Assembly: GCF_001989615.1 (NCBI RefSeq)
Contig: NZ_CP019067.1
Coordinates: 744,001 to 808,000 of the forward strand
DNA length: 64,000 nt
Direction of reading: 5' to 3'
Origin: Halorientalis sp. IM1011
GTDB taxonomy: Archaea > Halobacteriota > Halobacteria > Halobacteriales > Haloarculaceae
A program made the position numbers and the translations under genes. Positions 5,567 through 36,435 of the stretch are shown piece by piece. The notes beneath the pieces are model-generated. The model searched no databases. It was not told where the DNA came from and saw only the letters and a list, made by a program, of their open reading frames with translations. The first letter of the stretch is position 1, and every line of letters starts with the position of its first letter.

Positions 5567-6667
5567 TCACTCGAAGTAGTCGGCCAGCCGTTCGGCGGCG
5601 TCCGCGGCGCGCGGTGTCACCAGCGCGAACCGGAACCAGTCGGCCCGGGACTCGCCGAAGGCCGCGCCCGGCATCCCCGCGACACCGGCCTCGTCGATCA
5701 GTCGTTCGACGTTCTCCATGGTCCCCGAAAAGCCCGGGAAGCGGGCCATGACGTAGAAACTCCCCTCGGGCGAGGTGTACTCCGCGCCGGCGGCGTCGAG
5801 TGCGTCTGTGAACGCCCCGATCCGCTCGCGGAGCATCTCGCGGTTCTCCGCGTAGTAGTCCGGCGGTGTCTCCCGGAGCGCCCGCCAGACCGCGTACTGG
5901 GCCGGCCGACTGCTCGTCACGTTGGTCAGCATGTGCCGGGTCCGGAAGCCGTCCATCAGCGGCTCCGGGACGATGGCGTAGCCCACCCGGAAGCCGGTGA
6001 TCGCCAGCGACTTCGAGAACGCGTTGGTGACGATCCGGTGGTCGGAGTCGACCGCGAGCGCGCTGGTGAACGTCCCGCTGTAATCGAAGTGGTCGTACAC
6101 CTCGTCGCTGACCAGCAGGGCGTCGTACTCCTCGGCGATAGCGACGAGTTCGCGGACGGTTTCCTCCGGATAGACCGCCCCCGTGGGGTTGTTCGGGCTG
6201 TTGACGACGATGAGTGCGGTCTCGTCGCTCGCTGCCTCGCGGACGGCAGCGGAGTCGAGTTGTCCGTCGTCGTCGACCGCGACGTAGCGGGCCCGCCCGC
6301 CGAGCAGGTTCGTCCGCCCGGCGTAATAGGGGTAGACCGGATCTGTCAGGATCACCTCGTCGCCGGTACCCCGTGTGAGTCCCTCGGCCATCGCGAGGTG
6401 GTTGGCCTCCCCCGCACCGTTCGTTATCAGCACCTGCTCGACCGAGACGTTCCGGCGGGCGGCGATCTCCTCGCGCAGCTCCAGCAACCCCTCGCTGGCG
6501 GGGTACTGGAACCCCGCGGGGTCGCTGTCGGCGTACTCGATCAACCCATCCCGGAGCGCCCCCGGCGGTTCCCAGTCGGGATTTCCACTCACCATGTCGA
6601 CGACGTCCCGCTCGGCGGCGTCCGCGTACTGCATCACCCGGAAGAACTGCGGCCGCTCGTAGTCCAT
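5567..6667 (-). CDS. Class I/II pyridoxal-phosphate aminotransferase
   Basis: A 366-aa fold-type I aminotransferase. NSPNNPTG (156-163) and SDEVYDHF (187-194) bind the cofactor, Lys219 in NAFSKSLAITGFR is the expected Schiff-base lysine, and the later RFALVTP segment holds the usual substrate-carboxylate arginine. It is an aspartate/aromatic aminotransferase-like enzyme, but the substrate cannot be read from the sequence. The ATG at 6667 starts directly before the family's N-terminal helix; an upstream start would add 19 residues lacking family character. Confidence 0.88.
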   Translation of the reverse strand: MDYERPQFFRVMQYADAAERDVVDMVSGNPDWEPPGALRDGLIEYADSDPAGFQYPASEGLLELREEIAARRNVSVEQVLITNGAGEANHLAMAEGLTRGTGDEVILTDPVYPYYAGRTNLLGGRARYVAVDDDGQLDSAAVREAASDETALIVVNSPNNPTGAVYPEETVRELVAIAEEYDALLVSDEVYDHFDYSGTFTSALAVDSDHRIVTNAFSKSLAITGFRVGYAIVPEPLMDGFRTRHMLTNVTSSRPAQYAVWRALRETPPDYYAENREMLRERIGAFTDALDAAGAEYTSPEGSFYVMARFPGFSGTMENVERLIDEAGVAGMPGAAFGESRADWFRFALVTPRAADAAERLADYFE

Positions 6668-16538: not shown

Positions 16539-18110
16539 ATGACGACGCCGACGGTCGTGACCGACGGGACCACCTTCCGGAGCGTCGCCGACGGCGTCGC
16601 CCCCGGAACCCGCGTCCCCGTCGAGGTCAGGGTCACGGTCCAGGACCCCTTCACGGCCTACCGGCGTGCCAGACCGACCGGCGGGACGAACGACGACGGA
16701 ACCGCCGATGGCGATTCTCCCCACGGCGTCTACCTCGAAACCACGGGCGGCCAGTCCGGCTGGGGCTACTTCGGCGTCGACCCGGTCGACTGGGTCACGG
16801 TCGGCCCCGAGGCGGGGAACGCCCTGGCGGCGCTTGGCGACCGACTGGCCGACGAGTCGCTGGCGCGGGGCGAGTGCGACGTACCCTACCCCTGCGGCGC
16901 GGTCGGCTGGCTCTCCTACGACCTGGCGCGGGACCTCGAATCCCTGCCCGGCGACGCCGCACGCGACCGCGACCTCCCCCGGGTGCAGGTCGCCCTGTAC
17001 GACCGACTGGCCGCCTGGGAGGAACCCCGAGACGAGGAGACGACGCTCAGGGTCACCACCTGTCCGCGAGTCGACCCCGACGGCGACCGGGGGCGACCGG
17101 TCGCGGCGGCCTACGACCACGGACTCGAACGGGCGCGGGACCTGATCGAACGGGCGACGGGAGGGGATCCGGCGGTCGGGCCGCCGCCGGTCGACGCCGA
17201 CACTGCCCGGTTCGAGAGCGACTGCGGCCGGGCGGCCTTCGCTGACCGCGTGCGCCGGGTCGAGGAGTACGTCCGGGACGGCGACACCTTCCAGACGAAC
17301 GTCTCCCAGCGGCTGACGGCCCCGGCGGCGGTCCACCCGGTCGAGGCCTTCGACGCGCTCCGGCGGGTCAACCCCGCGCCCTACTCCGCCTTGGTGGAGT
17401 TCCCCGGCGTCGACCTGGTGAGCGCCAGCCCGGAACTCCTGCTGGAGCGGGACGGCGACGAACTGGTGACCGAACCCATCGCAGGCACCCGTCCGCGGGG
17501 CGAGACCGAGGCCGAGGACGACGATCTGGAGCGGGACCTCCGGACCGACGAGAAGGAACGCGCGGAACACGCGATGCTGGTCGATCTGGAGCGCAACGAC
17601 CTCGGGAAGGTCAGCGAGTACGGCAGCGTCGAGGTGACCGACTACCGCCGGGTCGACCGCTACAGCGAGGTGATGCACCTCGTCTCGGAGGTCCGCGGTC
17701 GCCTGCGCGACGGGGCTGACCTGACCGACGCCATCGCAGCGGTGTTCCCCGGCGGGACGATCACGGGGGCACCGAAGCCCCGGACGATGGAGATTATCGA
17801 CGAGGTGGAGGCCACCCGCCGCGGCCCCTACACCGGCAGTATCGGGATCTTCGGGTTCGACGGGCGGGCGACCCTGAACATCGTCATCCGGACGCTGGTG
17901 CGCTACGGCTCGGAGTACCACCTCCGGGTCGGCGCGGGGATCGTCCACGACTCGGTTCCCGACCGGGAGTACGAGGAGACGCTGGACAAGGCCCGGGCGC
18001 TGGTGACGGCGGTCGACGAGGCGCTGGGTCGGCGCGGTGACCTCGCGGTCGAAGCCGCGAGCGACGGCGGCGAGGCAGGTAGCAAGGATGGCGACGGGGG
18101 GCAATCGTGA
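16539..18110 (+). CDS. pabB: Aminodeoxychorismate synthase component I
   Basis: A 523-aa chorismate-binding enzyme. The conserved C-terminal core includes [58 protein letters not shown] and a final GAGIVHDS segment. Such proteins can be TrpE or PabB. The gene overlaps a glutamine amidotransferase by 4 bases and the third gene is a class IV lyase-like enzyme, so PabB is favoured. It adds ammonia to chorismate to give 4-amino-4-deoxychorismate. Confidence 0.88.
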
Positions 18111-34244: not shown

Positions 34245-34456
34245 AGCTCGAAAATGGCCAAAAAGCGGTCCTGTGTCCGAACGGAACACCGCCGGCGGTC
34301 GATGGGGATGGCCCCCACCGGCCCCCGAACGGCGGGACACAGGCTGTCTCCTGTAAGGGTCATAGTGTCGTTTGTGTGATCCGCGATAAGCGGTCCGAAC
34401 TCGTCGCTGCAGGATGAGTCCGGAAAACCGGCCTGTATTCGCCTCTATTGCCCCTA

Positions 34457-34467
34457 CATTATAAAAG
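34457..34467 (+). promoter_or_regulatory. TATA box in the fttA upstream gap
   Basis: CATTATAAAAG is the strongest TATA-like element in the 264-base divergent gap 34245-34508. It would give the 34509 gene a leader of about 20 bases. I see no other gene in the gap. Confidence 0.5.
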
Positions 34468-34508
34468 CCTTCGCAAAACAGTAGGTATTTCACCACGAAA
34501 TCGACACC

Positions 34509-34991
34509 ATGCACGTCTCACCTGCCGTCGTCGCAGCCGAACACGAGTGGGTCCGCGAGCGCGCGCCGACCGTCGTCGCGCTGATCGACACCGTCCGGAC
34601 CGAACTGGGAGAGCAGTTCGGGACCGACGTGGCAACGGTCACGGTCGAGCAGTACCACGAGGCCGTCGATACCGTCTTCGCCGACGGCGACCTCGCGGTC
34701 AACGTCACCGCGCTGGTCCGCCTGCTCCGGAATCTCGACGTTGACGGCGACTATCCCGGGTTCGTCGTCGACGAACTGCTCGGCCGGGAACTGGCCGGGA
34801 TGCTCGCCGGCACCCAGCCGCTCCGCATGCTCGGGGAGGCGACCTTTCACTACGCGGACGTGTTGACCCACGGCGACGCCGACGAGTCGGCCGGCGCGGA
34901 CGACCTGGACGCCGCGCTGGCCGCCGGCTTCCAGACGCGACTCCCGGGCTGGGAGTGGACCGAAACCGCGAGTCCGTTCGATAGCGACTGA
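34509..34991 (+). CDS. Uncharacterised haloarchaeal protein, 160 aa
   Basis: A soluble acidic protein starting MHVSPAVVAAEHEWV with mainly helical, Leu/Asp/Glu-rich sequence and no membrane segment or catalytic motif that I recognise. A repeat-like LRNLDVDGDYPGFVVDELLG segment lies mid-protein and the tail is acidic (DADESAGADDLDAAL). It is divergent from fttA. Confidence 0.7.
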   Translation: MHVSPAVVAAEHEWVRERAPTVVALIDTVRTELGEQFGTDVATVTVEQYHEAVDTVFADGDLAVNVTALVRLLRNLDVDGDYPGFVVDELLGRELAGMLAGTQPLRMLGEATFHYADVLTHGDADESAGADDLDAALAAGFQTRLPGWEWTETASPFDSD

Positions 34992-35028
34992 GCGACGGCT
35001 TCGTGACAGACAGAAACCGGAGAACGGC

Positions 35029-35178
35029 GAGCGCGTGTCGGTGCCACCCTCGGGACCCCACCCCGTCAGTCCCCTGTACCCCCCAAGGTACCGTCGGAGG
35101 ACCGTACCACGGGCCCAGCCCCGATGGCCCCCCAGCCATCGGGCTATACGGTGACACACGCTTTCCAGGGGTGTACCC
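35029..35178 (-). ncRNA. Candidate structured non-coding RNA in a convergent gap
   Basis: No protein gene lies in 34992-35236, where both flanking genes end. A strong TATA box at 35200-35208 would start a minus-strand transcript near 35177, just at GGGUACACCCC. From there the RNA could form a 9-bp hairpin (35120-35128 with 35135-35143, 6-nt loop), a second hairpin (35087-35095 with 35100-35108, one mismatch, GGAG/CUCC loop), and a 5-bp stem (35052-35056 with 35069-35073). Long-range arms also match: 35165-35178 with 35076-35088, and 35153-35161 with 35031-35039 (9 pairs, one wobble). It does not match RNase P, SRP RNA or tRNA as I know them. The 3' end is uncertain. Confidence 0.5.
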
Positions 35179-35199
35179 TTCGCCGGATATAGAGGGTCA

Positions 35200-35208
35200 T
35201 TTATAAAT
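35200..35208 (-). promoter_or_regulatory. TATA box of the candidate RNA gene
   Basis: TTTATAAAT is a near-perfect, almost palindromic archaeal TATA box located where no protein gene needs a promoter. It could also fire rightward, antisense to the DICT gene. Confidence 0.6.
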
Positions 35209-35236: not shown

Positions 35237-35956
35237 CTAACCCTCGACGTGCGCGGCCCGGAGATGCGTCACCAGTCGCTCGACACGGTCGGGGTCGTAC
35301 GTCCAGAAGCCGCCGTACGTGTCGGGTTCGCGTTCCCGGGCGATCAGCGCACAGGCCTGGGACTGTGTATCGGGACAGAATCCCACGAACCAGAACCGCC
35401 CGAGTTCACCGTCGGACTCGGTGTGTTCCGTGACGCCGGGAATCGGCGCTGCGTCCCACCGGCCGTCGAAGTAGACGTGCACGTCGAGATCGCTCTTCGC
35501 GAGACGTTCGTAAACGGATCGCTGAGCGGCCAGCGCCTCGGGTCGCTGGAAGCCGGCGTGGAGTTCTCCCCGACCGTGTCGCCAGGCCCGATCTTCGATC
35601 TCCCGGGTCGCCGCCAGCAGTTGCCGGCGCTCGAATGACTGAAAGAGCGTGTCGTCGAGCAGTTCCAGCAGCGGTTCGAGCGAGCCGGTCTGGGGGGTCT
35701 CGGCGTCGAGAACGCCGGCTGTCGGCTCGAACAGTGTCGCGACCGCTTCGAGGGGAACGGAGCCGAGAAATCGGTCACCCTGCCGGACCGTAACGAACCC
35801 GTCGGCGGACCCGTCCGGGAGTCGATCGAACCGCACGTCGACGTGCCACTCCGAGAGGCGGTCGGCGAGGTCTGACGGTGGGTCGGCGGCGTAGACGGTC
35901 ACGGTCCGCCGTCCGGCCGACAGGTCGTCGACGAACGCCCGGAGCGACTCGGTCAT
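35237..35956 (-). CDS. DICT sensory-domain protein, 239 aa
   Basis: A protein with the DICT pattern: an N-terminal helical part (MTESLRAFVDDLSAGRRTVT) and a core with FQSFERRQLLAATREIEDRA, then VYERLAKSDLDVHVYFDGRW and a C-terminal ALIAREREPDTYGGFWTYDP. DICT domains are proposed to sense light or redox signals beside other regulators. The start overlaps the upstream HTH gene by 4 bases, so sensor and HTH are split over two genes of one operon. Confidence 0.85.
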   Translation of the reverse strand: MTESLRAFVDDLSAGRRTVTVYAADPPSDLADRLSEWHVDVRFDRLPDGSADGFVTVRQGDRFLGSVPLEAVATLFEPTAGVLDAETPQTGSLEPLLELLDDTLFQSFERRQLLAATREIEDRAWRHGRGELHAGFQRPEALAAQRSVYERLAKSDLDVHVYFDGRWDAAPIPGVTEHTESDGELGRFWFVGFCPDTQSQACALIAREREPDTYGGFWTYDPDRVERLVTHLRAAHVEG

Positions 35957-36348
35957 CCGTCGATCAGGTCGCGGAGCGACTCGGGCCGTTCTCCGCGGGC
36001 CTGGGCCTCGACCCGGAAGGTCAGGTCGAGACACTCGTCCACCCAACTGGGATACGCCCCGAGCGAGACGACTCCAGTGTCTGCGTCGTGTTCGACGAGG
36101 CCACAGTCGAGGAGTTTCGGGAGGTGGATGTGTCGCAGCGCGATCTGCGTCTGTTCGTGAGCCAGTCGGTCGGCATCGACACCCTGGACCGAGGCCAGCC
36201 AGCCGGCCAACACGTCGGTCAGTTCGGTCCGGGTCGCGGACCCGTGTTCCCGGAGGTAGTAGAGCAGAAACCGCCGATAGTAGTTCGCGAGCGCCTCCAG
36301 TCGACCGTCGACCGCAGGGGGTGTGGCAGGCATGGTATTCGCTCCCAT
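35953..36348 (-). CDS. Winged-helix/HTH protein (DUF7344-like), 131 aa
   Basis: The protein has a winged-helix-like core: LANYYRRFLLYYLREHGSAT, TELTDVLAGWLASV, ALRHIHLPKLLDCGLVEHD and the beta wing TGVVSLGAYPSW. It is probably a DNA-binding regulator acting with the DICT protein encoded after it. The TATA TACATAAAC at 36372-36380 is centred 28 bases before the ATG at 36348; ATGs at 36354 and 36333 are alternatives. Confidence 0.8.
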   Translation of the reverse strand: MGANTMPATPPAVDGRLEALANYYRRFLLYYLREHGSATRTELTDVLAGWLASVQGVDADRLAHEQTQIALRHIHLPKLLDCGLVEHDADTGVVSLGAYPSWVDECLDLTFRVEAQARGERPESLRDLIDG

Positions 36349-36371
36349 GGCCATATCTGTATCGCAGGTTG

Positions 36372-36380
36372 GTTTATGTA
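36372..36380 (-). promoter_or_regulatory. TATA box for the HTH-DICT operon
   Basis: TACATAAAC on the minus strand is centred 28 bases from the ATG at 36348, favouring that start. Confidence 0.55.
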
Positions 36381-36435
36381 TTTTGGCGGCGTAAATAGAG
36401 TTACTCCGGGGAACGTGTGGGGCGGACACGGCGGG

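Follow-up and report, generated by a model that had tools for sequence, protein, structure and literature searches.

A probable small RNA gene with its own promoter, restricted to the archaeal genus Halorientalis

The minus strand of the Halorientalis sp. IM1011 chromosome very probably carries a small non-coding RNA gene of about 165 nt, previously undescribed in the sources that we searched and equipped with its own promoter. It is located at positions 35013–35180 of the 64-kb stretch of DNA analyzed here (hereafter called the window), and homologs are found in seven other Halorientalis species. Comparison of these sequences makes it highly probable that the RNA exists as a transcribed gene and, provided that it does, base pairing in trans with mRNAs is its likely mode of action, as judged from related systems. 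Since both of these statements have to hold for the full one, namely that this is an autonomous, genus-restricted sRNA gene of about 165 nt acting in trans by mRNA pairing, we put the latter forward with somewhat less assurance, as a fairly probable reading. A preliminary description of this DNA had placed a structured minus-strand RNA with its own promoter at this site; the RNA gene is well supported by comparison, while the architecture drawn for it is not. The remark that it does not resemble RNase P, SRP RNA, or tRNA was right, as Rfam returned nothing at the gathering threshold (best sub-threshold E = 2.8). No small-RNA study on Halorientalis was found in the literature searched.

Locus, promoter, and distribution of the RNA gene

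The RNA is encoded in a 245-bp gap between two protein genes, whose convergent arrangement had been noted in the preliminary description. Downstream of it, the gene of a 160-aa protein (34509–34991, plus strand), which is conserved across the family and has no Pfam match, ends at position 34991. Upstream and on the same strand as the RNA, the gene of a DICT-domain protein (35237–35956, minus strand; PF10069, E = 1.8e-10) ends at position 35237, and its own upstream partner encodes a DUF7344 protein (35953–36429, minus strand; PF24035, E = 3.1e-16). At 34400–34520 of the window, the 160-aa gene stands divergent to a gene of a KH/beta-CASP (aCPSF1-like) protein. These two genes still adjoin each other in many genera of the family, and the sequence TTATAAAAGCCTTCGCAA recurs between them.

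The predicted promoter contains the TATA box TTTATAAAT at 35199–35207 (minus strand), the near-perfect box already pointed out in the gap. This nearly palindromic 9-mer occurs once within the 64-kb window, and the eight species that carry the RNA all have the box in the conserved form (T/A)ATAAA(T). Conservation among them begins at the box itself, and the sequence upstream of it is unalignable. Further downstream lies an almost invariant initiation block, CTATATCCGGCGAAG (35178–35192, minus strand), which is identical in six species, while H. salina keeps its first 11 bases and H. marina keeps it partly (ATAcCCGGC). Haloarchaeal promoter elements including TATA and the '-10 WW' element have been reported (PMC4983044), and the TATAT of CTATATCCGGCGAAG, situated near −10 of the predicted start, fits the latter. 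Judging from the spacing to the TATA box, transcription would start at 35176–35180 (minus strand), about 25–28 nt downstream of the TATA center. A BRE was not recognized in this promoter. When CTATATCCGGCGAAG was sought in other genera, four matches with one mismatch were obtained, none of them in a similar context.

By DNA search, five further Halorientalis genomes were found to contain the element, and a covariance model (R1) was built from their sequences together with that of the window. The species that seeded the model score 125–180 bits, a match by construction; H. pallida, although outside the seed, reaches 172 bits. The copy of H. marina scores 23.9 bits (E = 2.8e-5 on its own locus, 0.02 for the whole genome); its position immediately 3' of the same DICT gene identifies it as an ortholog and not a chance match. 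The eight carriers are the window species, H. persicus, H. regularis, H. salina, H. marina, H. pallida, and the Halorientalis genomes G005 and G007; no copy was detectable in a further genome of the genus, G006. Among 392 sampled Halobacteriales genomes, searched with strict filters and with seven candidates scored per genome, matches were found in Halorientalis alone, and the loci of other genera inspected beside the 160-aa gene lack the RNA. Two BLAST matches outside the genus (L007 and L008) lie inside other sequence and were dismissed as chance, as were matches of the covariance model in Halostella and Halomarina loci, which are in the wrong place. As far as could be searched, the RNA gene is restricted to the genus Halorientalis. 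The homologous DICT and 160-aa genes of Halostella pelagica are convergent and nearly abut, forming a junction without the RNA (L068, around 5696). The RNA was probably gained, or greatly remodeled, in the Halorientalis lineage. Because the neighboring genus Halostella has the same junction without it, the emergence of an RNA gene between two protein genes appears to be traceable here. Spread as a mobile element was considered and rejected: the RNA is a single copy at one locus, and no plasmid, phage, or viral-contig match was found.

The RNA is also retained where its neighbors are not. In G007, the DICT gene is gone and the DUF7344 gene is a truncated remnant, while the RNA and its promoter are retained. 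In H. regularis, several frameshifts break the DICT gene (sequencing error is possible), while the RNA shares 94% identity with its H. persicus counterpart. The RNA of H. salina and H. marina faces other genes, with the 160-aa gene located some 1.1 kb away. Since the RNA is thus kept without an intact DICT gene in two species and with another 3' neighbor in two more, it is best regarded as an autonomous gene. The loss in G007 and the frameshifts in H. regularis also indicate decay of this DUF7344-DICT pair in some members of Halorientalis. Two extra genes separate the RNA from the 160-aa gene in both H. marina and H. salina, and in H. salina this pair encodes a 170-aa membrane protein and a 159-aa protein.

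Sequence conservation and secondary structure

The conserved stretch runs for 190 bp from the TATA box on, and conservation of the RNA body fades past GGTTTC at 35013–35018, the putative 3' side. Between the window and H. persicus, the RNA is 88% identical, compared with 58% at the four-fold sites of the 160-aa gene and 60% at those of the DICT gene. The corresponding values are 87%, 60%, and 54% for H. regularis and 86%, 62%, and 63% for H. pallida; for G005 and G007, the RNA is 75% identical, and the four-fold sites of the 160-aa gene are at about 60%. Sequence conservation, starting at the TATA box, is far beyond chance. Substitutions in the best conserved block are distributed 8/8/8 over the three codon positions, with no codon periodicity, and single-base indels occur within the RNA between close species. 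Comparison thus shows that the RNA body is non-coding and under purifying selection.

The helices proposed in the preliminary description fared differently in the relatives. The perfect 9-bp hairpin, CCCGAUGGC-UGGGGG-GCCAUCGGG at 35120–35143 (minus strand), is conserved as a structure and paired in all eight species. Seven of its pairs are invariant; one G-C pair is changed to A-U on both sides in H. marina, and one C-G pair has become U-G in G007. In a shuffle control, one such double change was matched in 64 of 500 cases, which is weak, so that the hairpin rests on its conservation together with one compensatory event. The 8-of-9 hairpin (GGUACGGUC-CUCC-GACGGUACC, 35087–35108, minus strand) and the crossing 9-pair arm, whose 3' half at 35031–35039 (minus strand) has its partner at 35153–35161, are both present as sequence in the window but lose pairs in the relatives. 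For the 5'-GGUAC/GUACC pairing, which dominates the window fold, partition functions give a probability of 0.69 in the window vs. 0–0.05 in H. persicus, H. regularis, H. pallida, G005, and G007. Neither the enclosing stem nor the suggested pseudoknot is supported; conservation in relatives favors the 9-bp hairpin, the sole one of the three helices to survive in eight of eight species, and not the other two.

A second stem-loop is plausible at 35069–35102 (minus strand), where GUCCUC/GGGGAC would enclose GUACC-UUGGGG-GGUAC, an inner hairpin located at 35076–35091. The arms of the inner hairpin are invariant in six of the eight species. The outer arm is possible in most species, in slipped registers instead of clean column pairs, as exemplified by GUCCUC/GGGGAC in the window, GCCUCC/GGGGGC in H. 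persicus, and GGUUCCC/GGGAACC in G007. Its combined shuffle p of about 0.004 is modest and ignores phylogeny, and the case for this stem-loop is suggestive only. Another, variable hairpin just upstream of the 9-bp hairpin was discarded, as it is strong in H. salina alone and has an overall shuffle p of 0.47. Toward the 3' side, the conserved block GGGGUGGGGUCCCGAGGGUGGCACCGACACGCGCUCGCCGUUCUCC (35019–35064, minus strand) is a candidate interaction region; within it, GGGUGGCACC and CGCGCUCGCCGUUC are almost invariant in seven species and degraded in H. marina. Runs of at least four U are absent from the conserved body in all species except H. marina.

Folding energy was abandoned as evidence for the RNA, not being significant relative to shuffled sequence. 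The minimum free energy (MFE) of the minus-strand fold gives z = −0.89, and 38 of 200 shuffled sequences fold equally well or better; the plus strand has z = −2.23, so that energy fails to single out the RNA strand. Averaged over the eight species, z is about −1.5 for the RNA strand and about −1.3 for the opposite one. Since perfect hairpins are cheap in GC-rich DNA, energy by itself would be insufficient for the claim of a structured RNA. A stretch of G-runs at 35047–35084 (minus strand) matches the G-quadruplex (G4) motif G3+N1-7, and this motif is present in five of the eight species. The window, with a GC content of 66%, contains three canonical motifs on both strands together (35047–35084 and 6545–6573, minus strand; 17844–17868, plus strand). 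In four of the eight species, a G4 is predicted in the MFE structure, and G4-aware folding prefers it there by 8–15 kcal/mol. The G-run counts are no higher than composition predicts, and the motif is missing in H. salina, H. marina, and G005. The quadruplex was rejected as a defining feature of the RNA, being a property of a subset of species only.

Proposed mode of action and alternative explanations

The RNA is situated between protein genes, has its own basal promoter (TATA and −10), is non-coding, and is conserved in eight species, all of which are features of haloarchaeal intergenic sRNAs. On this basis, we propose that the minus strand would be transcribed from about 35178, driven by the TATA/−10 promoter, and that the product would fold into the 9-bp hairpin and probably the second stem-loop. 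The conserved, probably single-stranded stretches, chiefly the 3' block at 35019–35064, would stay free and may pair with mRNAs encoded elsewhere in the genome. By analogy with other haloarchaeal intergenic sRNAs, such pairing could alter the stability or translation of these mRNAs. A search for complements of GAGAACGGCGAGCGCG from the 3' block with at most two mismatches gave 33–80 matches per strand per Halorientalis genome, vs. 2–8 for the reversed control; it was swamped because this word is a common coding (codon-usage) motif in these genomes.

Several points speak against the reading as an autonomous, trans-acting sRNA gene: the folding energy is no better than that of shuffled sequence, there is only one clear compensatory pair change, the complement search yielded no target, U-runs are missing from the conserved body outside H. 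marina, and no copy was detected in G006. A structural RNA that binds a protein or serves as a decoy through its invariant hairpin or a G-quadruplex, instead of pairing with mRNA, is unlikely, although the 9-bp hairpin is almost invariant even in sequence and the RNA contains one of the three quadruplex motifs of the window, occurring in five of eight species and energetically preferred in four. Against it stand G-runs that do not exceed composition, their failure to form the motif in H. salina, H. marina, and G005, and the lack of a known protein partner. The haloarchaeal cytoplasm contains KCl at very high, multi-molar concentrations. A new lineage-specific structured RNA whose G-run quadruplex, for example, would be potassium-stabilized under such conditions and bind or sequester a protein is a still more doubtful proposal. 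We are equally hesitant about a role in cis, in which the RNA would be antisense to the 3'-UTR of the 160-aa gene, or would belong to the DICT mRNA, either as an RNA derived from its 3'-UTR or as a processing element. About 20–45 nt separate the end of the RNA from the 160-aa gene's stop codon in the window, H. persicus, H. regularis, and H. pallida, so that the two transcripts could overlap, and the RNA is directly 3' of the DICT gene on the same strand. However, other genes intervene in H. salina and H. marina, where the distance to the 160-aa gene is about 1.1 kb; the RNA persists with its promoter where the DICT gene is gone (G007) or broken (H. regularis), and it has a promoter of its own.

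A small protein gene of about 45–60 codons, starting at an ATG within the hairpin, is very improbable. Seven species keep its frame open, and five share a GWHRHALAVLRF-like stretch in that frame, but at 66% GC open frames occur often, substitutions show no codon-position bias, and frameshifts separate the middle parts of close species. Additionally, H. marina has an in-frame stop, G005 and H. salina show changes of frame, and a shared stop codon is lacking. It is hardly credible that the RNA guides modification of rRNA or tRNA, despite a compatible size, compatible hairpins, and the divergence of haloarchaeal H/ACA guides (PMC2584109). The C box (RUGAUGA) of C/D guides is found in no species and the D box CUGA is not conserved. 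As for box H/ACA, there is no conserved ACA after the hairpin, no conserved UGA/GA motif, and no kink-turn, the hairpin being a plain 9-bp stem. Antisense matches to 23S rRNA are no longer than those of shuffled sequence, no Rfam family matches, and confinement to one genus is unlike a housekeeping guide. Just as remote is the view that this is not a gene and that a conserved DNA element or functionless shared sequence is being seen, as conservation far above that of synonymous sites extends from a canonical promoter through 190 bp, in a single copy at one locus to which no plasmid, phage, or viral contig matches.

Comparison with known archaeal small RNAs

Like the haloarchaeal H/ACA guide hairpins HP1 and HP2 (PMC2584109), the Halorientalis RNA is predicted to be a structured RNA of an archaeon and comes from intergenic sequence; unlike them, it lacks guide features. 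It shares its size range, its promoter elements, and its restriction to related species with the haloarchaeal itsRNAs (PMC5867862, PMC7002113), which were found by RNA-seq, whereas the Halorientalis RNA was recognized by comparative genomics only. Its nearest counterpart is sRNA132 of Haloferax volcanii, an intergenic RNA of 138 nt with its own BRE/TATA/−10 promoter, restricted to its genus, with conserved gene order and two predicted stems; it affects a target operon, and an interaction with the 3'-UTR has been predicted (PMC6560208). The RNA described here likewise is intergenic, has its own TATA/−10 promoter, occurs in one genus at a conserved location flanked by conserved protein genes, and has two predicted stems. 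In contrast to sRNA132, it would be about 165 nt long and belongs to another genus and locus, so that the likeness is one of anatomy, with no sequence similarity claimed. If transcribed, the Halorientalis RNA would represent an undescribed RNA family outside Rfam with clear signs of selection. Next to sRNA132 of Haloferax, it would then be a further clear-cut example of a haloarchaeal regulatory RNA that is specific to one genus and apparently young.
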